Below, piece after piece: positions 21,305 through 46,857 of a stretch of DNA of 47,208 bases (position 1 is its first letter; each line of letters starts with the position of its first letter). This DNA comes from a virus: positions 1 to 47,208 of the IMG/VR virus record IMGVR_UViG_3300042300_000888. The stretch is one strand, 5' to 3'. A program made the position numbers and the translations under genes. Below the pieces are notes generated by a model. That model was not told the DNA's origin and searched no databases. It saw only the letters and a program-made list of their open reading frames with translations.

Positions 21305-24300
21305 TTAATTACGTTTAATTGCGGCCGCTTGTCCTTGACCACCGCCTGATATTAATAACCAATCGGTATCGGTTCCTATTTGAGTAAATGTTAATATGGT
21401 AGTATTTTGTGATATACCAAATCCTAGAGGAGATTCGGCATTATCGGTTCCAGCAGCCCATAGAGTTCCATCGGTTTTAATCGCAAATGTAGATAAATCT
21501 CTACCTTCAATTAATCTCCAATTGGTATCAGAACCTATTTGTATAGGAACGAGTGAATCGGTAGTGGTTCCGTTTCCAAACACTCTGTAGTTGTTCCATC
21601 CCCAAGCCCATAATGTTCCATTATTTTTAATCGCAAATGTATATTGATATCCTGCATATATTTCTTTCCAATTCGTATCGGTTCCTATTTGTATCGGTGA
21701 TGTTTTTTGTATTGTTGTGTCATCGCCTAGTTGGCCTTGTGCGTTATATCCCCAAGTCCAGAGAGTTCCATCATTTTTCAGTGCTACAGTGTGTGAATTA
21801 CCTGCTGAAACCTTCATCCAGTTACTATCACTTCCTATTTGAACTGGCGAATTTCTTTGAGTGGTGGTACCATCTCCCAGACGACCATTTATGTTAGAGC
21901 CCCAAGCATAAAGTGTTCCATTGCTTTTAATTGCAAGAGTGTGTAATGAACCTCCCGAGACGGAAATCCAGTTACTATCACTTCCTATTTGAGTTGGTGA
22001 AGTTCTTCCTGTAGTATCACCCACGCCCAATCTACCGGATGAACCAGCACCCCAAGCCCAGATTGTTCCATTGCTTTTAATTGCAAGACTATGATTGTCA
22101 CCTGCCGAGACGGAAATCCAGTTACTATCACTTCCTATTTGCACAGGAGTTCCATTTGCATTATTGTTTGTGGTTGTACCTTTTCCTAACTGTCCGTTGG
22201 TGTTTAATCCCCAAGACCATAGTGTTCCGTCCAATTTTAGCGCAATCATATGTTGGGAACCTACGGAAATGTCTTTCCATTTTACCCCACTACTAATCAC
22301 GGTAGGACTCAATACATCAGCATCTAACGCATCGGTTTGATATGTACCGTTTCCGAGAACACCATAACGTGCATCGCCCCAAGTGTATAATAAACCATTA
22401 GAACCTAATAATTGAGTTTGTCCAAAGGCCTCTCCGGATTCAATACCAGATGAAATTACACCTTGCCACGGAACATCGGAATCAACTAAAAACATAGTGT
22501 GCAATGCGCCCATTGAGGCTTTTACAATTGGTATATTTGGAGTCAACAATCTCGTAGGAGTAAAAACAGGCGAATTGCCGAAAGTACCATTTATGCGACC
22601 AAGTTGATAATCATTATTATTTCCCCATCCCCACAGCGATCCATCAGTTTTAATTGCCAAGGTACCACTTCTGCCGTGACACTCTCCCAGACTCGCCCAA
22701 TCGGTGTCTGTTCCAATTTGAGTTAAACTTGTCACAATTAAGTAACCGTAAGGACCGCTGGTTCCTACACCTTGACCTGCACCGCATTGTCCCACACTGT
22801 TAATTCCGCAACCCCATAAAGTACCATCCGATTTAATGGCAATAGTGAAGTTTTCGCCTGCGTGTATATCAATCCAATCGTTTGCGGTACCAATTTGTGA
22901 TGGAGTAGCTCCATATGAATTACTTGTTCCTGTTAATTGGCCATAGTCATTATTGCCCCAACCCCATAGAGTACCATCCGTTTTTAATGCAATACAATGC
23001 CAAAGACCGCTAACAACCTTGCTCCAATTCGTATCTGTTCCTACCTGTGTTATCGTTCCTAACCATCCACTCAAACCTGCGGGTGGATATCCCCAATGAT
23101 AAAGTGTACCATCAGCCTTTAAACCAAACGTCCAATTTGTAGTGGAAACACTCTTCCAATTACTTTCGCTTCCAATCTGAGCAAAATACCAAGGAGTCGC
23201 CGTTGAGGTTCCGGCCCATAAATTGTTCAAATTTCCGCTAACCCATCCGGCACCCCAAAGTGTTCCATCTTCTTTAATTGCGTGAGCAAAATTATCACCA
23301 AACCAAGCCCAGTGACTAACCTGTTTCCAAGTATCTCCGGACTCAATTGGGATCGGCGGATTAACGGCAGCGCCTTGCTCAGGCCAACTAGTTGATGCTC
23401 CATCTCCCATTGAATATTGTTGAGAACCCATTGCCCATAAAGTTTTATTTGGTTTCAACAAAAACGTTATCCTTTCTCCGGCGAAAACGTCTGTCCATTC
23501 GTCTATTGAATTAAATGATTTTGCAATAGTGACATTTCCACCACTCGACACTATTTCGCCCGATCCGCTATTTCCCAGTCCATATACAACTGAATCGGGC
23601 ACAACCTCAATTTGTGTTAAGGAACCAAATGCTTCTCCTGTACTTATACCATTACAAAAAATAGGTTTAGGTGATGTTACATCTAAAATTCCACCACTTT
23701 GAAATGCGTGTGTTTGTATTCTATTCCATTTTAAATACGTTGTGAGGCTTTGTGGTGTCGTGCTAATATTTGTGCCAGGAGAATCGCTCAATAGTCTAGA
23801 CCCCCATCCCCAACCCCACAATGACTTATCTGATTTTATTGCATATGAATATCCACCGCCGTAAATAAATCCTGTTGCAATTTCCATCCAGTCATTATCA
23901 GTGCCAATTTGAATTGGTTGAGCCTTTGAAATTGTAGTACCATCACCTAATTGACCTGTGGTGTTATCTCCCCATGCCCACAGAGTTCCGTTCGATTTTA
24001 TAGCTAAATGGTGTCCACCTGAAGTTGAGACATTAATCCAATCAGTATCAAGCTCTATTTGTAAAACACTCGTCGTTAATTGCCAAAGTGTTCCATCATT
24101 TTTAATTGCAAATGACGCATTTCCACCCGCCGCTATAAAAGACCAATCTGTATCAGTACCTACTTGAATTGGCGTTATTGAATCCACAGTTGTTCCATCA
24201 CCAAGCTGACCTTCAACGTTTCGGCCCCACGACCACAATGTTCCATCAGACTTTAATGCCAAAAAGTGATTACTTCCGCTGTCAAGACTTACCCAATCGG

Positions 24301-24655
24301 TATCGGCATTCAATAAGGTTGGTGCGGTATGCGTGGAAGGTTCGTACCAAACATAATGAGGCCATTGCCACAATGTTCCGTCATCTTTAATTCCGGCATT
24401 TCCGTAATTTCCGCCCCCAACGTTTTGAACGCCTGTAATTTTGACAAAATTTGAATCTCTATTAAATGTTAAACCTGAAAATATATTATCTTCCCATAGT
24501 TGTCCATCCTGCTTGAGTGCCATCAACAATTCGCCCCAACCAAATCCTCCTTTTAGTATGACATCTGAGTATGGTATTAAATTGTCTTCATTTATTGGAG
24601 TCGATTGTAATTTTGGTAAAGTTCCATTTCCAACGTATCCCCAAGTGTACAAAGT
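21305..24655 (-). repeat. RCC1 repeat array (about 21 copies, 150-bp period)
   Basis: Protein-level repeats of about 50 residues are visible as DNA repeats where young. The ~70-bp stretches starting near 21921 and 22071 are nearly identical and exactly 150 bp apart. Copies in the third block (21305-22420) are the most alike, while those in the first block are the most diverged, consistent with recent amplification at the C-terminal end. Confidence 0.85.
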
Positions 24656-26602
24656 TTCTTCAGGAGGCAAAACTATCGGAGATATGCCAAGATCTATATT
24701 GCTACTACCAAACTGTTCATCAGAATTTATAGATGAAGTTAAAATCGATGTCGCACCACTCAATATTGAAGGAGTTCCAAATATTTCTTGTGTGTGTATG
24801 TTGATAGTAAATAACTGCTTCGATCCACTAGGGAAAGGTGATGACGTATCACATAAAGGATCTTTTAAAATTGGTTCTGGTTGTATCTTGGTTCTTAACC
24901 AAGGTTTCATCCAAAAATCTCCAACAACGATATCAAAGAAATCTTTTATTTGATAATTTGCAAAATCGGTTTTCCAATAATTTGAGTTGCCCGAATATAA
25001 CAATCTATCTTCATCATTTCCACCATTTGGCTTATATGTAAATTTAAATCTATCGATGCTGTTTAATGATGCACCATTTCTGTATCTGACTAGACTTTCT
25101 AGTTGGTATTCATCGAGTTCAGGTTGTATGTTAGGATCGACTTCTAATTTTAATTCTACATCTAGCGGCTTAAATGAAATATCATTATATTCAACTTCGT
25201 TATGCCAACTAACTTGTAGATTATTCTGTACTTTCGCTCCACTTGAAATAAAGTTTTCACTTAAAAAGTTTCCAAATAATTTTAAACCGGATGGATGAAT
25301 TAAATCTTTAACAAAAGATTCATAAAAGTCAAAAGATTCACTAACCTTGATTACATAAGAAAATTGCTGATAATAAAAACTATCTTGTATAAATTTTGCA
25401 TCACTTAATTTTCCATCATCATTTAAGAAATATCCTTTATATTTTATTATTGTACCAACTTGAGGAATTATGTGTAATTGATTATCACCATCCGGTTCGT
25501 AAACTAATATATTGTTGTAAGTTCTTTCGCCAATTTTTACTTCACTAAATGCTGTTGGTGGTATTTTAAATCCTGGAGAAACAATATCAACTTTTGTTAC
25601 ATTGCCTAAAGTATTTACGGTAGATACAGTGGCCTTAAAATCTTGAATATTAAAGTTTTGAAAATTACTCGCTATCTCAGTTCCTATAGAATAGTTTGAA
25701 CCTTTGTCGAATAATTTAAAACCAGTTACGCAAGTTACAGGATTTGCGAAAACGTTTGGAGCCTCATCGGAATATAATATTTCGCCAGGATAGAATTCTC
25801 CCGTTATTGAACTTCTATTTAAAAATAACTCGTATACGACATTTAAACCTATCTCAAGTTTTATAGCATATTCAACAAATGCGGAACTTTGACTATTTTG
25901 TCCAATTATTTTTTTATTGATGAATGCAAATGGAGTATCTGCCGAATTAGTTGGCATCTCAACTCTAACAGAATAGTTTTGAATCCATTTTCCATCAGAT
26001 GGTCGGAGCATATCCACACGAGGATAATAGAAATCAATCTCAGCACCTAATATTAATCTAAACAAATATTTGTATGCTCTTTCTGTTCCCTTTGCACCAT
26101 AAAATTGCACAATGTTTTTTATGGCATTTTGTATTTTAACTCTATTATTTGGATTTGCAGGATCTACGTATAATTCTTTAGGAAATCTAGACATCACTTC
26201 TTTTTGAAGTGAATGTAAAAATGGGTCTTCAGTTGTGTCAAGATCTTGTAATCTAGGTAAATCTTTACTTAATCCTAAAGCATTGCCTCTGATTTCCATC
26301 CATTCGTAATATTTTTCTAGAAAATCTATAAATCTAGGAAAATCAGATTGAACATATTGGGGCAATCTATGCTTAACTATTTTTGCTATGCTTTGAATTT
26401 GTCTCGGTTGTTTTATGACAGTAGGAGATCCGTGAACTTCTCCGGAAGCAATTGAAGAAGGAACTAAATTTTGTAAATTAACCTTTGGTGAGCTAACGAT
26501 AGAGGCTGTCGAAATTGAGGATGGTTTAACGACACCAACCATCACGTGGTTTGATGATGAAAATCCAGAACTTATGCCAGTGCATGTTATAGATTGTGAC
26601 AT
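21305..26602 (-). CDS. Baseplate wedge protein in the gp7 position with three RCC1-type propellers
   Basis: 1765 residues. Residues ~1-600 resemble the structural protein that follows gp6 in marine T4-like phages (KHRLPQYVQSDFPRFIDFLEKYYEWMEIRG, then FPKELYVDP, then 'NIVQFYGAKGTERAYKYLFRLILGAEIDFYYPR'). Residues ~650-1765 are RCC1-like repeats (consensus xxHxLAIKSDGTLWaWGxNxxGQLGdGT, about 50 residues each). I can parse them into three sets of seven (about 650-990, 1003-1372 and 1395-1765), each ending in a strand that could close the ring with its first WG strand. Linkers between sets carry an 'SGEAFG' motif that also occurs at residue ~50. The ATG overlaps the gp6 stop (TAATG). Synteny puts it where T4 gp7 lies. 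The propellers could bind host glycans or virion partners; function unknown. Confidence 0.8.
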   Translation of the reverse strand: MSQSITCTGISSGFSSSNHVMVGVVKPSSISTASIVSSPKVNLQNLVPSSIASGEVHGSPTVIKQPRQIQSIAKIVKHRLPQYVQSDFPRFIDFLEKYYEWMEIRGNALGLSKDLPRLQDLDTTEDPFLHSLQKEVMSRFPKELYVDPANPNNRVKIQNAIKNIVQFYGAKGTERAYKYLFRLILGAEIDFYYPRVDMLRPSDGKWIQNYSVRVEMPTNSADTPFAFINKKIIGQNSQSSAFVEYAIKLEIGLNVVYELFLNRSSITGEFYPGEILYSDEAPNVFANPVTCVTGFKLFDKGSNYSIGTEIASNFQNFNIQDFKATVSTVNTLGNVTKVDIVSPGFKIPPTAFSEVKIGERTYNNILVYEPDGDNQLHIIPQVGTIIKYKGYFLNDDGKLSDAKFIQDSFYYQQFSYVIKVSESFDFYESFVKDLIHPSGLKLFGNFLSENFISSGAKVQNNLQVSWHNEVEYNDISFKPLDVELKLEVDPNIQPELDEYQLESLVRYRNGASLNSIDRFKFTYKPNGGNDEDRLLYSGNSNYWKTDFANYQIKDFFDIVVGDFWMKPWLRTKIQPEPILKDPLCDTSSPFPSGSKQLFTINIHTQEIFGTPSILSGATSILTSSINSDEQFGSSNIDLGISPIVLPPEETLYTWGYVGNGTLPKLQSTPINEDNLIPYSDVILKGGFGWGELLMALKQDGQLWEDNIFSGLTFNRDSNFVKITGVQNVGGGNYGNAGIKDDGTLWQWPHYVWYEPSTHTAPTLLNADTDWVSLDSGSNHFLALKSDGTLWSWGRNVEGQLGDGTTVDSITPIQVGTDTDWSFIAAGGNASFAIKNDGTLWQLTTSVLQIELDTDWINVSTSGGHHLAIKSNGTLWAWGDNTTGQLGDGTTISKAQPIQIGTDNDWMEIATGFIYGGGYSYAIKSDKSLWGWGWGSRLLSDSPGTNISTTPQSLTTYLKWNRIQTHAFQSGGILDVTSPKPIFCNGISTGEAFGSLTQIEVVPDSVVYGLGNSGSGEIVSSGGNVTIAKSFNSIDEWTDVFAGERITFLLKPNKTLWAMGSQQYSMGDGASTSWPEQGAAVNPPIPIESGDTWKQVSHWAWFGDNFAHAIKEDGTLWGAGWVSGNLNNLWAGTSTATPWYFAQIGSESNWKSVSTTNWTFGLKADGTLYHWGYPPAGLSGWLGTITQVGTDTNWSKVVSGLWHCIALKTDGTLWGWGNNDYGQLTGTSNSYGATPSQIGTANDWIDIHAGENFTIAIKSDGTLWGCGINSVGQCGAGQGVGTSGPYGYLIVTSLTQIGTDTDWASLGECHGRSGTLAIKTDGSLWGWGNNNDYQLGRINGTFGNSPVFTPTRLLTPNIPIVKASMGALHTMFLVDSDVPWQGVISSGIESGEAFGQTQLLGSNGLLYTWGDARYGVLGNGTYQTDALDADVLSPTVISSGVKWKDISVGSQHMIALKLDGTLWSWGLNTNGQLGKGTTTNNNANGTPVQIGSDSNWISVSAGDNHSLAIKSNGTIWAWGAGSSGRLGVGDTTGRTSPTQIGSDSNWISVSGGSLHTLAIKSNGTLYAWGSNINGRLGDGTTTQRNSPVQIGSDSNWMKVSAGNSHTVALKNDGTLWTWGYNAQGQLGDDTTIQKTSPIQIGTDTNWKEIYAGYQYTFAIKNNGTLWAWGWNNYRVFGNGTTTDSLVPIQIGSDTNWRLIEGRDLSTFAIKTDGTLWAAGTDNAESPLGFGISQNTTILTFTQIGTDTDWLLISGGGQGQAAAIKRN

Positions 26603-33248: not shown

Positions 33249-33506
33249 TTAGTCTTCATATAAAAATGGTTCGATTCTTTTTAGTTTTTCTTGTAGCGTT
33301 TTCAGTCTTGCTTGTAGCTTCCATCTTTTTGTGGGATTTTTTCTTACTTGAAGTCTACCAAAAACATTCATATATTTTTGTTGATATTTCTGATATGATT
33401 TAAGTGCTTCAGGATTCAACTTTCTAGTAACCGAAGTCTGGTTCGGTTCCGCTGTGCTCAATTCTTGATTGCTCTCCTCTTCCTTTAACGATAATGTTTC
33501 TGTCAT
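33249..33506 (-). CDS. Small basic protein, unknown; starts inside the ung reading frame
   Basis: 85 residues from the ATG at 33506, chosen because AAGGAG lies 7 nt upstream. A further-upstream start at 33521 would add five residues and bury the ribosome site. Residues 1-25 are acidic (EEESNQELSTAEPNQ), residues 30-80 basic and helical (SYQKYQQKYMNVFGRLQVRKNPTKRWKLQARLKTLQEKLKRIE). No domain recognised. The first 83 bp overlap the 3' end of ung in another frame; see the finding on the A7 run. Confidence 0.7.
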   Translation of the reverse strand: MTETLSLKEEESNQELSTAEPNQTSVTRKLNPEALKSYQKYQQKYMNVFGRLQVRKNPTKRWKLQARLKTLQEKLKRIEPFLYED

Positions 33507-34170
33507 TTTTTTCTCCTTCAACTTTAACGGGATTCCAATCTATAATATCTATTTTATGCTTTTTTAGAAACTCATTGCAAGCAGAAAAATGCTTACAATT
33601 AAAAAAACCTCTGTGTGCTGAAAGTGGCGATGGATGTGCAGCTTTCAGTATCAGATGCTTTCTCTTATCTATGAATGCAGAACATTTGGCAGATTTCTGG
33701 CCCCACAACATAAAAACCACATTTGGCAAAGAATCCGAAATGTGCTTTATAACTCTTTCGGTAAAAATCTCCCACCCCAATCCATAATGAGAACCTGGCC
33801 TTCCGCTTTCTACTGTTAAAACTCTATTCAGCAAAAATACACCCTGATCAATCCAATTTGACAGTCTACCTTGAATTTGGATATCTCCGATGTCTGACTG
33901 TATTTCCTTAAATATATTGTTCAGAGAAGCGGGTACAGTCTCTTCCGTAGACTCGAATGCAACGCCAGTAGCAGCACCATTGTGATAAGGATCTTGTCCT
34001 ATTATAACCACTTTGATTTTGGCTAGTGGTACACTCGCAAAAATTTTAAACGTATTTTCTGGATCTGGATATACTAGTACCCTTTTTCTCTCATTGGTCA
34101 CACGTAATGCCAAATCCTGAAAATATTGTTCGTGCGATTGTAGTGTTAAAAATTCTCTCCACTCTTGCAT
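33424..34170 (-). CDS. ung: Uracil-DNA glycosylase, family 1
   Basis: Removes uracil from DNA to start base excision repair; phages use it to protect or edit their own DNA. 248 residues. Signature 'GQDPYH' at 58-63 with catalytic Asp60, 'GAATGVAFES' at 65-74, 'LLNRVLTVESGRPGSH' at 113-128, 'VVFMLWG' at 151-157, and 'HPSPLS' at 179-184 with catalytic His179, then 'RGFFNCKHFSACNEFL'. The usual Ung end ('IDWNP') falls at 210-214. Another 34 residues with no homology-like features follow and overlap the next gene out of frame. The catalytic core is complete, so activity is expected. Confidence 0.95.
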   Translation of the reverse strand: MQEWREFLTLQSHEQYFQDLALRVTNERKRVLVYPDPENTFKIFASVPLAKIKVVIIGQDPYHNGAATGVAFESTEETVPASLNNIFKEIQSDIGDIQIQGRLSNWIDQGVFLLNRVLTVESGRPGSHYGLGWEIFTERVIKHISDSLPNVVFMLWGQKSAKCSAFIDKRKHLILKAAHPSPLSAHRGFFNCKHFSACNEFLKKHKIDIIDWNPVKVEGEKNDRNIIVKGRGEQSRIEHSGTEPDFGY

Positions 34171-39381: not shown

Positions 39382-39455
39382 TGGAGCCCTCACCTAGAAT
39401 CGAACTAGGAATTGATGATTACAAATCAACTGTTATACCTTTTAACTATAAGGGC
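39382..39455 (-). tRNA. tRNA-Thr(UGU), CCA encoded
   Basis: The 74-nt minus-strand cloverleaf has acceptor arms GCCCTTA and TGAGGGC, a D-arm GTTA/TAAC, an anticodon loop TTTGTAA (anticodon TGT, stem with one T-T mismatch), a T-arm CCTAG-TTCGATT-CTAGG, a discriminator T and genomic CCA at 39382-39384. ACA/ACU Thr codons are frequent in the AT-rich fibre genes, a plausible reason to carry it. It lies antisense to the 3' end of the plus-strand transcript. Confidence 0.93.
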
Positions 39456-39499: not shown

Positions 39500-40270
39500 T
39501 CAAGAATTATTTTTAATAGTTTCAAGAATCCAATCTCTACCGGCGGGTACACTAGCATAAACGCCAGGATAAACACTACTTGCACATTCAAATCCCCACG
39601 ATGTAATACCATAGAGAACCCTTCGGTTCAATGAGGTAATTGGTCCGCCACTGTCACCATTACAAGTATCACCACCATCCAGCACTTCACTAGACGAAGA
39701 CAATTTGGCTCCACAAATCATTGTTTTGTCGTCAAATTGATCGCCCAAAACAGTACTGCATTGACTCTGTTGCCAAATTGGAAACTTCAATTCCTTCAAT
39801 TGGGATGATATTGTACCCGATTCGGTAATACCCCAACCAAATGCTCTATGGTTTCCCACGACATTCTTTGTTGCCAGTTTTGGATACAATCTTGATTTTA
39901 ATTTTCTCTTTAATTTAAAGAGTGCCCAGTCTCGCTTATATGTAAAGCCACTCCAATTATCAAAAAATACAGACTCTACTCCAGATCTTGCCTTTGGATG
40001 AGAAAGACTCTTACCACCAACACCTACTTTGAAGAAAGATAGGTCGTAAAATTTTGACAATTCGGCACAGTGTGCAGCCGTCAGTACCCAACCAGGCTTG
40101 ATGAGCGTCCCGCCACAAAAGAATTCACCATCGAGATATAGTGCAGTCATATATGGTACAGCACGATTCACCGTTATACCATTAATAATTCTTTCAGTAG
40201 TTTGTGCGTGTGACTTTACACATACAAACAAAGATAATGCCAATAGTCCAATTTTTGTTTTAATTTTCAT
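39500..40270 (-). CDS. Secreted trypsin-like serine protease (family S1)
   Basis: 256 residues. Signal peptide ~1-22 (MKIKTKIGLLALSLFVCVKS, cut after SHA). A short propeptide leads to R27-I28 in 'ERIINGI', the classic S1 activation site. Catalytic triad: His67 in 'LTAAHC', Asp114 in 'KRDWALFKL', Ser207 in 'CNGDSGGP'. Asp201, six residues before Ser207, is the trypsin specificity residue, so cleavage after Lys/Arg is expected. Cysteines 52/68, 171/186 and 203/229 fit the three common S1 disulfides, so the mature enzyme is suited to the periplasm or outside. No late box is clear. Possible roles: destroying host surface proteins, lysis, or maturing another exported protein. Confidence 0.93.
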   Translation of the reverse strand: MKIKTKIGLLALSLFVCVKSHAQTTERIINGITVNRAVPYMTALYLDGEFFCGGTLIKPGWVLTAAHCAELSKFYDLSFFKVGVGGKSLSHPKARSGVESVFFDNWSGFTYKRDWALFKLKRKLKSRLYPKLATKNVVGNHRAFGWGITESGTISSQLKELKFPIWQQSQCSTVLGDQFDDKTMICGAKLSSSSEVLDGGDTCNGDSGGPITSLNRRVLYGITSWGFECASSVYPGVYASVPAGRDWILETIKNNS

Positions 40271-40385: not shown

Positions 40386-41273
40386 TTAAAACAGTTCAAT
40401 TTCGGTGTCTTCTTTTTTCAGTTCTTCTATATCGGTTTGACCATCTAAGATTTTTATCTCCTCTAGATTATACATTTTATCCCACAGTGTGTAAAAGGTT
40501 TCTTGAGTAGACTTATCAAATCGACTTAAACATAGTTTTACCGAATCATTAATATTTCCTATAATGTTATTGGTTTGTAATATATGAACCAAACGACGAG
40601 TGGTTACGACTTCATTTGAACCACCATCATCAAAGGTATCTCTAATGGATTCAGACCACGAGAGTAAGGTATTGACAATTTTTTCATCGCCTCTAGTCAT
40701 TATCTTGGTAAGAATCTTTTTCTCATTCGCTTTACTTGGATATTTTTGTTCCAGTGTGATTGCAAATCTTTCCAGAAATGCTTCATTCAAAAAGTTAGTA
40801 CCGATAAACTTACCAGTTTCATCACCTTGACCTTTCGTATTGGCGGTAGCGATTATGGTAAAGCCAGGTGCTGGCGTTACGACCTCATTCATTTTCTTTA
40901 TGTACAAAGGATTACCTTCAAGTACAGGTTGTAGACACATAATTCTGTTAGATGCCAAATCAACCTCGTCTAACAAAAGAACCGCACCTTCCCGCATTGC
41001 TTCAACGACCGGACCATAATGCCATACGGTGTCACCATCCTTCAATCTAAAACCACCGATCAAATCATCTTCATCCGTTTCAATGGTTACGTTTATTCTG
41101 ATCAATTTTCTTTTCAGATCGGCGCATACTTGTTCTACCATCATAGTTTTGCCGTTACCGGACAAACCAGTAATAAAGACAGGAAAGAAATTTTGACTAC
41201 CGACAATCTGTGAAAGTAGATTATGATGGCCCCACTTTACATAGTTGTTATTTTTGGTCGGTACAATTGACAT
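40386..41273 (-). CDS. MoxR/CobS-type AAA+ ATPase
   Basis: 295 residues from the ATG at 41273, chosen for TTGGAG upstream; the frame extends to 41324. Walker A 'GLSGNGKT' at 36-43, Walker B 'VLLLDEVD' at 98-105, sensor-1 'IATAN' at 141-145, and an arginine finger in 'FLERF' (Arg169). 'YGPVVEAMREGAVLLLDEVDLA' and 'LEGNPLYI' are typical of MoxR/CobS ATPases, which remodel partners through a VWA protein. Phage copies are usually labelled CobS (cobaltochelatase subunit), but nothing else of cobalamin synthesis is nearby. The next two genes upstream encode a VWA protein and a metalloprotease, forming one module. Confidence 0.9.
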   Translation of the reverse strand: MSIVPTKNNNYVKWGHHNLLSQIVGSQNFFPVFITGLSGNGKTMMVEQVCADLKRKLIRINVTIETDEDDLIGGFRLKDGDTVWHYGPVVEAMREGAVLLLDEVDLASNRIMCLQPVLEGNPLYIKKMNEVVTPAPGFTIIATANTKGQGDETGKFIGTNFLNEAFLERFAITLEQKYPSKANEKKILTKIMTRGDEKIVNTLLSWSESIRDTFDDGGSNEVVTTRRLVHILQTNNIIGNINDSVKLCLSRFDKSTQETFYTLWDKMYNLEEIKILDGQTDIEELKKEDTEIELF

Positions 41274-41324
41274 AACAATGATCTCCAAGATAAACAATTT
41301 TTCTATAATTAAATTATCACACAA

Positions 41325-42590
41325 TCAAACTAACAGATCAACAATTTTTTCGGAAATAATTTTTAAAGATTTTGTCTTGACTAAACTTTTGGTCATATCT
41401 CTGCCAATTTTGCTTATTTCTTTTTTTACATTTTCGACTTGTTTTGGTCTTTTGGCATATATATCTTTATCGAAATCATCATCGAGTCCTTCATCATCCA
41501 AAGATTCTACGTCATTCCAAAAATCACTTCGTTGTATTACATCAAAACATCCAAATACACTCTTATTAAGACAAATAAAAGTATTGAAAGATTGTGGCAA
41601 ATTATTAACTTTAACTTTGATATCATCAGAAGAGAATCTATCACTGTGGATATAGAATTCGTGGCACTTCAATGATTGACCAAAGTGTTTTCTTAATGCA
41701 GAAACTAAAGTATGATATTGAGCCGGTTTCCAATCGATGTGATGGTACATCATATTGTCGGTTCTATTTCTAATTAATCCATTTTTCACAAGTGTTTCAT
41801 AATTAGACAAAACATCATAAAAGTAACTTTTATTTTTGTACTTTATGTTTAAAGATGTTTGTCCGCCAAGTGAGTCTCTGGAGAATAATTCGTTTCTGCT
41901 TTCAATTGTATCCGTTGCATCGCCATCGGTTATGACGATTAAATGAGTTATATCCTTTTTGTGTTTTTGTTGAAAATTATCTACTACCTTAAAACATTCA
42001 AACATTGAATTATTCAGTGGAGTACCAGAGAGTCCGTAGCCGAATGAGTGTGCATAGCTCGCCTCGGAGGCAGCTCTAGCGAGATAATAAAATGCTTTAG
42101 ATTGCATTTGAAAATCTAGCTTCGATGATGAAGATGATAAAAAATTATATAATCTGCATTTGTCCGGAGGTGCATTAAATGGATAATGTTCAGACTCATA
42201 ATTATGTACTCTAAAATCACTAAACCCATAAACATCAAACGGCAAACCGGCCTTTTTACAAAACTTGGCAAACAATAAAATTTGTAGTATGCAAGGCAAA
42301 TATTCAGAACCCATACTACCAGACATATCAAACAATACGACAAAACCGTAACTGTCGCCTTTGTAATCGATCTGTTTTCTAATAAAAATATCTTCCGATA
42401 GTTTATGTTTGGATAATGATTGAGTGTCTAGTATACCAGTTTTTTTGAATTGCGTTTTGTGATATTCTCTGGTTTTTTGTTTTCTTAGAAACAATTGCGT
42501 CATATGACTCGAAATCATTTCTAATGCACGATCCATTTTTTCATAATCAGATTTATATCTTGATGCATTATCTCTGGTATAGTAATTCAT
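41325..42590 (-). CDS. VWA-domain protein with complete MIDAS (CobT C-terminus-like)
   Basis: 421 residues from the ATG at 42590 (GAAGG ten bases upstream; a TTG at 42599 is the alternative). Residues ~1-75 are helical and basic. The VWA domain spans ~80-330 with all MIDAS elements: D88-x-S90-x-S92 in 'LFDMSGSMGS', T190 in 'LSGTPL' and D222 in 'ITDGD'. The C-terminal ~80 residues are charged and helical. MoxR-type ATPases act on or through such VWA partners, so it is probably the adaptor for the downstream ATPase. The preceding metalloprotease gene overlaps the alternative start by 1-3 bp. CobT shares this VWA type, but its chelatase role is doubtful here. Confidence 0.88.
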   Translation of the reverse strand: MNYYTRDNASRYKSDYEKMDRALEMISSHMTQLFLRKQKTREYHKTQFKKTGILDTQSLSKHKLSEDIFIRKQIDYKGDSYGFVVLFDMSGSMGSEYLPCILQILLFAKFCKKAGLPFDVYGFSDFRVHNYESEHYPFNAPPDKCRLYNFLSSSSSKLDFQMQSKAFYYLARAASEASYAHSFGYGLSGTPLNNSMFECFKVVDNFQQKHKKDITHLIVITDGDATDTIESRNELFSRDSLGGQTSLNIKYKNKSYFYDVLSNYETLVKNGLIRNRTDNMMYHHIDWKPAQYHTLVSALRKHFGQSLKCHEFYIHSDRFSSDDIKVKVNNLPQSFNTFICLNKSVFGCFDVIQRSDFWNDVESLDDEGLDDDFDKDIYAKRPKQVENVKKEISKIGRDMTKSLVKTKSLKIISEKIVDLLV

Positions 42591-42595
42591 TTTTA

Positions 42596-43528
42596 TCAAC
42601 CTTCATAATATGATAAAATTCGATGGAGTACATCAGCAGTGAATAATTTGCTATTACTAATGATATCGCAATTACTAATTTCAATGCAAGTGATATTTTT
42701 AGATAATGCTTCTTGTAAACTTTCATTCATTTTCTGTTCAAAGGTGTTTTGGATTTCAGAAAAGAATTCGCCAGAATCATTCTTCGTGGGTTTCTGTGGT
42801 TGAATCTGTTCGGATTGTTGTTGCGTTTCATTTTGTTCATTTTGACCACCATCAGAAGTCTCAGTACCAGAAACTTCTACTTTTTGCATTTGAGATTCAT
42901 TCTCTTGGTCTTCTTCGTTTTCTTGATCTTTTTCTTTTTCTCTCTTTAGATACTCTAGAATTTCTCTCGATACTGTTACAACACTTTCAAAGTTATAACA
43001 AGTTATACATTTCTTGACTAATGAAAGTTCTTCGGTGTTAAAGACTATTCTACCATACGATTCATAATTGGCTTTTACCTTGAGGTATAATACCAATCTA
43101 TCCAAAAATGTTTTGTAATTAATTTTGTGTAATGAGTGTGATATTTTTTCTTCGTTACCAAAGAAATCATTTTCCAACAACCATTTAATTCCGTTTTTAT
43201 AATCAGAAACCAAGCCAGGATATTTTTGTTTTATCTTTATATCGATTCGATAGTCTTCTACTATATTGATGATTGGTTTTAATTCTTTACCCTCTTCACT
43301 CACAAATATATCATCATACGGAGTAAACAATGCGTGGCCAACTTCGTGTCCTATAACGAAATGATATAATTGTTCTTGCTTGAAGTCCCAGAATGGTAAA
43401 TATAAAGTTCTGTTCTTTATATCAAAGGCTGCGGTAGTCAAACTCTGATTAAGAACAACGCCGATATTTTCACTAGCAAACAGTTTTGCCAGTAGCTCAT
43501 AATTCTGTATTGCATTGTTTGATTTCAT
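42596..43528 (-). CDS. HExGH zinc metalloprotease-like partner of the VWA/AAA+ module
   Basis: 310 residues. 'VIGHEVGHALFTP' (His61, Glu62, His65) is a zincin active-site helix. 'INIVEDYRIDIKIKQKYPG' at 87-105 provides an Asp/Glu third-ligand candidate and resembles a motif I associate with phage VWA-linked peptidases. A long acidic, Gln/Glu-rich linker lies at ~200-260 (EKEKDQENEEDQENESQMQ), then a short helical end. The N-terminal half suggests proteolysis; the linker suggests a flexible tether. It is encoded immediately before the VWA gene, with the ATPase next, so substrate selection and unfolding by those partners is a reasonable model (inference). No signal peptide is present, so it should act in the cytoplasm. 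Confidence 0.85.
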   Translation of the reverse strand: MKSNNAIQNYELLAKLFASENIGVVLNQSLTTAAFDIKNRTLYLPFWDFKQEQLYHFVIGHEVGHALFTPYDDIFVSEEGKELKPIINIVEDYRIDIKIKQKYPGLVSDYKNGIKWLLENDFFGNEEKISHSLHKINYKTFLDRLVLYLKVKANYESYGRIVFNTEELSLVKKCITCYNFESVVTVSREILEYLKREKEKDQENEEDQENESQMQKVEVSGTETSDGGQNEQNETQQQSEQIQPQKPTKNDSGEFFSEIQNTFEQKMNESLQEALSKNITCIEISNCDIISNSKLFTADVLHRILSYYEG

Positions 43529-45101: not shown

Positions 45102-45380
45102 CTATTCAAAATAATAGTCATTTTCCGGTCTAATATAGTATTCACTATTGAGATTAACAACTTCTTTCCTTTGTATCATGGATAAAAAATTGTATTTTGT
45201 TATTCTTCTATTATTAGTATAGATCTGTGCCACACAATTATCAAGAAAAAACTCCCAGTCTTTTACATTTTTATGCACAAAAGGTTTATTCGATTTTGGA
45301 TAATCACCAAATACTCGTATAACAAACGATAAGCTATTGGAATTATTTGATACTATTATTTCAGTTGTAACCATTTTCAT
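45102..45380 (-). CDS. Unknown protein
   Basis: 92 residues (MKMVTTEIIVSNNSNSLSFV), mostly beta at the N-terminus with an Asn/Tyr-rich tail ending in 'YYIRPENDYYFE'. The start could be the ATG two codons later. It begins 5 bp after the lysine aminotransferase stop, so it is probably in that transcript. No domain recognised. Confidence 0.6.
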   Translation of the reverse strand: MKMVTTEIIVSNNSNSLSFVIRVFGDYPKSNKPFVHKNVKDWEFFLDNCVAQIYTNNRRITKYNFLSMIQRKEVVNLNSEYYIRPENDYYFE

Positions 45381-45385
45381 TCGCT

Positions 45386-46657
45386 TTACAAACTTTTGGC
45401 TAATATCTCAATAAGTAAATCAACCTCTTCCTTTGAGAATGTCAAAGATGGTCTAAGTCTTACTGAATTAAGACCACATCCTAGCAGAAATAATCCGTTT
45501 TGTCTACATCTTTTTATTAATGCATCACGTTCTCTTAAATGGTCAAAGGCACACATTAAACCTTTTCCTCTAGGATTTGAAACACCAAGATCGGTCAACT
45601 TCTTCAATAGATAGTCACCAACAATTTTGGCATTTTCAACTAGATTATCTTCTTTTATTATTTCTAGGTATCTCTGAGAGCGAACCATATCGACTAAATT
45701 TCCACCCCAAGTGGAATTGATTCTAGATTTTTCTACAAAAACATTATCTTTAACTTCCTGTACTCTAGGTCCGCTTAGTATACCACACACTTGCATCTTT
45801 TTGCCAAAACAGATAATATCTGGTACAGCCAAATAATGCTGATGGGCCCAAGTTTTACCAGTTAATCCTAAACCAGTTTGAACCTCATCGTATATTAATA
45901 GCATATCGAATTTATCTGCCAATGCACGAAGGTTCTCATGAAAATTTCCACTGAAATGATTGTCACCACCTTCGCCTTGTATTGGTTCAATTATGATTGC
46001 TGCACAAGTATCCTTTAATTTTTCTATTGTTTCCAGTGCAACGTTATAAAAATTACAATCAAGACTCAATTGCTGTTCTGGTGAATTAGACTGATGTAAT
46101 ACTGGTGCTTCAAGTCTAGGCCAATCGGGAAATTTTGGAAATAGTTCATACTTTCTAGGATCGTTTGTATTAGTTAAGCTGAGACTGTAGCCAGAGCGAC
46201 CATGAAATGAGTTTTTAAAATGCACGATCTTCAATTCGTTTGGATCGACATTCACTCCCCTTTCTTTAAGTCTCTTATATTTCCAGTCAAAGGCAACCTT
46301 CAATGCATTCTCTACCGCTAGTGTACCTCCGGCGATGAAAAAGGAATGAGTAAGATATGGTGGCACTGCTACATCAAAAAATGTTTCAACAAATTCCACA
46401 AACTCTTCAGTGAGAATATCAGAGTTTGACGGATTCGTCCTAGCACACCTCAATAGTTTTTCGCTAAATCGTTCATCGAACATTTTAGGATGATTGTGTC
46501 CTATGGGGTTGCTGGCAATAAAGCTAAATGCATCAAGATATTCTTTGCCTGTGCTCTTATCTACAAGAAAATTGCCGTGGCTCTTGTCAATATCAAAGAC
46601 AGTATCAAAATGATCTAACAGTATAAACTTTGAAATTCTTTCGTGAAGGTCGGACAT
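45386..46657 (-). CDS. lat: L-lysine 6-aminotransferase (PLP, class III)
   Basis: Moves the epsilon-amino group of L-lysine to 2-oxoglutarate, giving 2-aminoadipate 6-semialdehyde (which cyclises to piperideine-6-carboxylate) and glutamate. 423 residues, near full family length (about 450). It closely follows the actinobacterial Lat pattern: 'LDAFSFIASNPIGHNHPKM' (41-59), 'NPSNSD' (75-80), 'AGGTLAVENALKVAFDWK' (109-126), 'FHGRSGYSLSLTNT' (151-164), 'EPIQGEGGDNHF' (224-235), 'IYDEVQTGLGLTG' (255-267; Asp257 contacts the PLP ring), 'CFGKKMQVCG' (283-292; Lys286 is the Schiff-base residue), 'NSTWGGNLVDM' (314-324) and 'RLRPSLT' (400-406). AGAGG precedes the ATG. All key residues look intact, so it should be active. 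Confidence 0.93.
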   Translation of the reverse strand: MSDLHERISKFILLDHFDTVFDIDKSHGNFLVDKSTGKEYLDAFSFIASNPIGHNHPKMFDERFSEKLLRCARTNPSNSDILTEEFVEFVETFFDVAVPPYLTHSFFIAGGTLAVENALKVAFDWKYKRLKERGVNVDPNELKIVHFKNSFHGRSGYSLSLTNTNDPRKYELFPKFPDWPRLEAPVLHQSNSPEQQLSLDCNFYNVALETIEKLKDTCAAIIIEPIQGEGGDNHFSGNFHENLRALADKFDMLLIYDEVQTGLGLTGKTWAHQHYLAVPDIICFGKKMQVCGILSGPRVQEVKDNVFVEKSRINSTWGGNLVDMVRSQRYLEIIKEDNLVENAKIVGDYLLKKLTDLGVSNPRGKGLMCAFDHLRERDALIKRCRQNGLFLLGCGLNSVRLRPSLTFSKEEVDLLIEILAKSL

Positions 46658-46659
46658 GA

Positions 46660-46857
46660 TTACCTCTTTCTAAGTAACAGAACAACTAACAACAAAGACA
46701 CCGCAAAACTAACACTAATTCCCGAATACAACTTGACTCTATTATAGCTAGGTACAAGTTCATAGACAACGTGACCGACAATAACAGATCCGACACAAAG
46801 AAGAAAACAAAAAAACAGATTTAAAAAAAACTTCACAAAAGACAATAACTTTGACAT
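46660..46857 (-). CDS. Small two-span membrane protein, unknown
   Basis: 65 residues with two hydrophobic segments: ~8-33 (VKFFLNLFFCFLLCVGSVIVGH) and ~43-62 (YSGISVSFAVSLLLVVLLLR), ending in Arg/Lys. GAGGAAAT precedes the ATG. It ends 2 bp before the lysine aminotransferase start, so the two are co-transcribed. Size and topology fit a holin-like or spanin-like protein, but no motif supports either. Confidence 0.65.
   Translation of the reverse strand: MSKLLSFVKFFLNLFFCFLLCVGSVIVGHVVYELVPSYNRVKLYSGISVSFAVSLLLVVLLLRKR

Follow-up and report, generated by a model that had tools for sequence, protein, structure and literature searches.

The window, by which we mean the whole stretch of 47,208 nucleotides analyzed, is a 47-kb virus record with T4-like structural genes. 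It carries a lat-family gene with a complete open reading frame (ATG start, 423 codons, no internal stops), whose GC content (0.365) matches that of the whole window (0.363). The gene lies within a tight string of same-strand genes, 2 nt from the upstream gene and 5 nt from the downstream gene, and is preceded by a good ribosome site (AGAAAGAGGTAATC-ATG), both as described in the original prediction (Table 1).

Table 1. Features of the lat locus and other genes of the window phage
Feature	Position	Strand	Basis
lat-family gene; class III PLP aminotransferase, L-lysine 6-transaminase family, 423 aa	45386-46657	-	ORF, profiles, alignment, predicted structure
Ribosome-binding stretch preceding the lat ATG	46658-46671	-	Read from sequence
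Small membrane protein, 65 aa, directly upstream of lat	46660-46857	-	ORF list, comparison with relatives
Function-unassigned protein, 92 aa, directly downstream of lat in the same gene string	45102-45380	-	ORF list, 5-nt gap
Phage gene block: AAA ATPase (CobS/MoxR-like), VWA-like protein, peptidase	40386-43528	-	Profile matches
Secreted trypsin-like serine protease	39500-40270	-	PF00089, 132 bits
tRNA-Thr (TGT)	39382-39455	-
Uracil-DNA glycosylase superfamily protein, phage-encoded	33424-34170	-	PF03167
1765-aa protein with multiple RCC1 repeats and a baseplate-wedge match at its N terminus	21305-26602	-

The 65-aa membrane protein next to lat was confined to the closest relatives and is thus not a conserved lat partner, and the expectation that other phages would share it beside the gene was not borne out. 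The neighbors of lat were found to differ between lineages: the window phage has the small membrane protein, whereas in L107:7306-8571, from a T4-like relative of the lat clade, lat is followed immediately downstream by the gene for a secreted reprolysin-like metalloprotease. This pattern indicates that lat was kept while its surroundings turned over. We failed to find any conserved partner beside lat among the window-clade loci.

Other genes of the window phage were also recorded. Both halves of the block containing the AAA ATPase were matched by phrog_459, the trypsin-like protease had no match among annotated phages, and the RCC1 repeats of the 1765-aa protein give this phage baseplate protein a propeller of eukaryote-like type.

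Family assignment and predicted active site

The L-lysine 6-transaminase model TIGR03251 (EC 2.6.1.36) was the best NCBIfam match to the lat protein (521.2 bits, E value of 1.5e-156), with the next family at 231 bits, 290 bits lower and below its own cut-off of 567 bits. Pfam Aminotran_3 (PF00202; gathering cut-off, 30.5 bits) covered the protein over its full length (281.9 bits, E value of 9e-84, positions 9 to 402 of 403). At the sequence level, the match to these two families is far above chance. The TIGR03251 score exceeds the curated equivalog cut-off of 520.8 bits by a mere 0.4 bits and some window-clade relatives score just under it (515 to 520), so the model barely vouches for function. 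The cellular Lats tested scored 607 to 672, versus 468 to 547 for the phage LAT-family proteins, indicating that the phage enzymes have drifted and that the curated cut-off falls among phage scores. Together with the arginine-type gene context of related phage genes described below, these scores make lysine no more than the probable substrate.

Other aminotransferase identities were considered and rejected. Ornithine aminotransferase (TIGR01885) reached 146 bits against a cut-off of 378, and an ornithine, GABA, or acetylornithine aminotransferase identity was ruled out by family scores, fold, and tree. A first tree split the LAT family, including the window gene, from six outgroup enzymes (ornithine, GABA, ArgD/acetylornithine, AstC, and diaminobutyrate types) with 100% support, a placement in agreement with the original prediction. 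In a sequence search of solved structures, Mycobacterium tuberculosis (Mtb) Lat was the top match at 393 bits, and mitochondrial GABA aminotransferase reached 171 bits. The AlphaFold2 model of the lat protein (pLDDT, 89.8; pTM, 0.90) retrieved Lat entries first (TM-score of 0.95 and 46% identity in the structural alignment), followed by GABA aminotransferase at approximately 0.88.

All of the motifs originally named were present, with EPIQGEGG starting at E224 and NSTWGGN at N314, and Lys286 and Asp257 had been numbered correctly. In the alignment, K286, E229, D257, R154, R400, N314, T316, and Q260 of the window protein correspond to Lys300, Glu243, Asp271, Arg170, Arg422, Asn328, Thr330, and Gln274 of Mtb Lat, respectively, with Lys286 as the Schiff base lysine, Glu229 as the switch glutamate, and an Asn314-Ser315-Thr316 run. 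These eight active-site residues were retained in all nine window-clade copies, and the assignment to the Lat family with an intact active site was upheld. Two positions lining the active site differ between Mtb Lat and the window protein, Ala129 being replaced by Thr112 and Val63 by Ile47; Thr occupies Mtb position 129 in 5 of 51 cellular Lats, making Thr112 compatible with Lat activity. The enzyme resembles the Mtb lysine epsilon-aminotransferase Rv3290c (PDB 2cin family) in its fold, sequence identity, and full set of catalytic residues, and differs from it in these two substitutions, in being phage-borne, and in having no lysine-degradation neighbors. We read it as a working diamino-acid omega-aminotransferase that is probably specific for lysine.

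Phage location, divergence, and cellular relatives

The window shares 20,459 bp at 100% identity with a second contig. A 157-kb contig (G002), which carries a T4-type portal gene (531 bits), aligned with it at 95.9% identity across 23,147 bp that include lat. On the basis of these independent contigs, we rejected an assembly chimera, and they corroborate the predicted phage encoding. Three contigs of the window phage lineage carry the gene at the corresponding position; it is a metabolic gene, intact and conserved, that belongs to a genuine phage genome. The window phage is a T4-like myovirus with lat in an accessory stretch. A portal comparison showed just 43 to 45% identity to cyanophages, and neither the portal nor the secreted trypsin-like protease pointed to a host. 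The related 157-kb contig also carries an IMP dehydrogenase/GMP reductase family gene (L089:6795-7829).

More distant lat copies with 58 to 70% identity were found on further phage contigs, and the best cellular relative of the lat protein was approximately 55 to 57% identical, leaving no candidate for a recent donor. A comparison of two close copies gave 18 synonymous (dS, 0.071) and 7 nonsynonymous (dN, 0.007) changes, and deeper pairs had a near-saturated pS of approximately 0.7 to 0.9 and a pN of approximately 0.14 to 0.30. With a dN/dS of approximately 0.1, dN is far below dS among the copies, which indicates purifying selection. The variable neighbors of lat might be expected of a freshly captured host gene useless to the phage or of an error joining host and phage in assembly. 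However, this explanation is highly improbable and already largely refuted, given the constant place of lat on three contigs, one of them 157 kb long with a portal, the purifying selection across a long divergence, and the low identity to any cellular relative.

A more careful tree of 69 sequences, with GABA-T and ArgD outgroups, recovered the window clade, a large phage clade, and the separation of LAT from the outgroups, each with 100/100 support. In the best free tree, the closest neighbors of the window clade were the cellular Lats L008 and L023 (99/95). L008 is divergently adjacent to a piperideine-6-carboxylate dehydrogenase (360 bits over half of the profile; next, 156), and such a dehydrogenase lies near lat in 27 of 80 cellular loci, indicating that the cellular kin carry out lysine catabolism. 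Cellular lat-dehydrogenase pairs, which occur in Bacteroidota, Marinimicrobia, and others, share the aminotransferase family with the window phage and include one of its nearest free-tree relatives, but the window phage and its relatives have no dehydrogenase partner. A tree that unites all phage sequences withstood the AU test (P = 0.555; likelihood, 1.3 higher), which makes one capture about as plausible as two and the sister group of the window clade provisional. This tree, as likely as the free one, moves the window clade away from its lysine-type kin. Two independent phage captures, suggested by the free tree, were dropped as a claim for the same reason.

Proposed reaction of the window enzyme

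Lat converts lysine and 2-oxoglutarate into aminoadipate semialdehyde/piperideine-6-carboxylate and glutamate (PMC4726150). On balance, we consider it probable that the window gene encodes a working PLP enzyme of the Lat family and serves a T4-like phage as an auxiliary metabolic gene that moves the lysine epsilon-nitrogen to glutamate. Lys286 would hold PLP as in Mtb Lat, and the enzyme would take the epsilon-amino group of lysine, leaving alpha-aminoadipate semialdehyde, which would cyclize to piperideine-6-carboxylate. The amino group would then be handed to 2-oxoglutarate to give glutamate, by which the infecting phage may draw the amino nitrogen of host lysine into glutamate, and a host aldehyde dehydrogenase could finish the oxidation to aminoadipate. 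We infer that the enzyme is expressed and active, that lysine is its main substrate, and that it benefits the phage. In the window-clade records searched, all of them fragments but including the 157-kb one, we found neither a glutamate dehydrogenase nor an aldehyde dehydrogenase, so the pathway would rely on the host in these phages. The lat-pcd pair, i.e., a piperideine-6-carboxylate dehydrogenase gene by lat, was likewise not found in these fragmentary records.

Since lat stands without the later pathway enzymes in the window phage, its direct products may be the relevant ones if the host does not complete the pathway. On this reasoning, the gain would lie in piperideine-6-carboxylate for a modified macromolecule or a stress solute, or in a depletion of lysine that perturbs the host. 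We regard this as improbable: reading the window-clade loci by eye, we saw no gene for a reductase, a ligase, peptide synthesis, or base hypermodification linked to lat, and the osmolyte and macromolecule-modification roles first proposed found no genomic support in the window phage.

LAT-family genes in other large phages

A profile scan placed a LAT-family gene on 57 IMG/VR contigs, some of them near-duplicates, and a further one was found in the 595-kb huge phage LR756511.1. A T4-type portal was present in 18 of the 40 LAT-family records searched, which include fragments. Outside the window clade, in a second clade of large phages, the gene recurs in two settings, which we call groups A and B. 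No T4 capsid family match was found in group A records, but direct reading of contig G038 showed a terminase-sized ATPase and a 2908-aa tape-measure-like gene among structural-looking genes, and this contig also gave a terminase match (30.7 bits; cut-off, 22). These large and huge phages resemble the window phage in encoding the same family with its active site kept, and differ in belonging to a separate 100/100 clade and in often carrying the gene either near that of a glutamate dehydrogenase or together with those of an aldehyde dehydrogenase and an arginine-dihydrolase-like protein.

Each of the 17 group A loci encodes a 500-aa aldehyde dehydrogenase just upstream of the LAT-family gene; at 15 of them, the gene directly preceding the LAT-family gene is arginine-dihydrolase/DDAH-like. 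The genes overlap in many loci (L124 and similar ones), as translationally coupled genes do, and some loci add saccharopine-dehydrogenase-like and ornithine-cyclodeaminase-family genes. All 14 aligned dihydrolase-like proteins retained Asn68, His165, and Cys263, which we take to be the expected catalytic places. The group A aldehyde dehydrogenase was closest to a type other than piperideine-6-carboxylate dehydrogenase, and we found no support for assigning the aldehyde dehydrogenases of LR756511, G020, and G023 to the latter. The 13 loci of group B have a glutamate dehydrogenase gene 2 to 5 genes downstream.

This context hints that some phage LAT-family enzymes use ornithine rather than lysine. 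The chief rival to our reading is accordingly that the phage enzymes have shifted to ornithine or to basic amino acids broadly, in a route from arginine through ornithine and glutamate semialdehyde to glutamate, which would be deaminated to 2-oxoglutarate. The upstream dihydrolase-like and aldehyde dehydrogenase genes, their overlaps, the intact dihydrolase residues, the type of the aldehyde dehydrogenase, and the downstream glutamate dehydrogenase are all consistent with such a shift. However, it is suggested by group A and not by the window clade itself, which lacks all of these partners and forms its own clade (100/100), separate from the partner-bearing genes. Moreover, the window gene outscores the group A genes tested on the lysine model TIGR03251 (475 to 480 bits). 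For these phages as a whole, we therefore rate the shift as unlikely, and lysine remains the substrate that we favor for the window enzyme.

A broader reading, which we put forward tentatively, is that several large-phage lineages encode parts of basic-amino-acid degradation, which in infected cells would lead from host lysine or arginine to glutamate, 2-oxoglutarate, and ammonia, the window phage having a one-gene version. The parts would comprise the arginine-dihydrolase-like enzyme, the LAT-family omega-aminotransferase, the aldehyde and glutamate dehydrogenases, and the saccharopine-dehydrogenase-like and ornithine-cyclodeaminase-family enzymes.

Known phage metabolic genes serve mostly photosynthesis and nucleotide, sulfur, and phosphate metabolism. 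Our search of the open (nonsubscription) literature found no paper on lat in phages, in line with the original view that lat is not a routine phage auxiliary gene. The enzyme family is known, but its occurrence in phages, in some of them accompanied by linked catabolic genes, appears to be undescribed. Phage polyamine enzymes (PMC9992855) are similar in bringing host-type nitrogen metabolism onto phages but comprise decarboxylases and polyamine synthesis, with no lysine omega-transamination. If our reading is correct, a recurring amino-acid-degrading transaminase, whose gene is physically coupled in some phages to those of other catabolic enzymes, would allow phages to tap the host amino-acid pool for nitrogen and carbon.

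Strings in which the aldehyde dehydrogenase, arginine-dihydrolase-like, and LAT-family aminotransferase genes have overlapping ends were observed at L124:3712-7200, L138, L146, and other loci. In most loci, the L124-type string is followed by a nucleotide-sugar dehydrogenase-like gene, and some also contain a class I aldolase gene.
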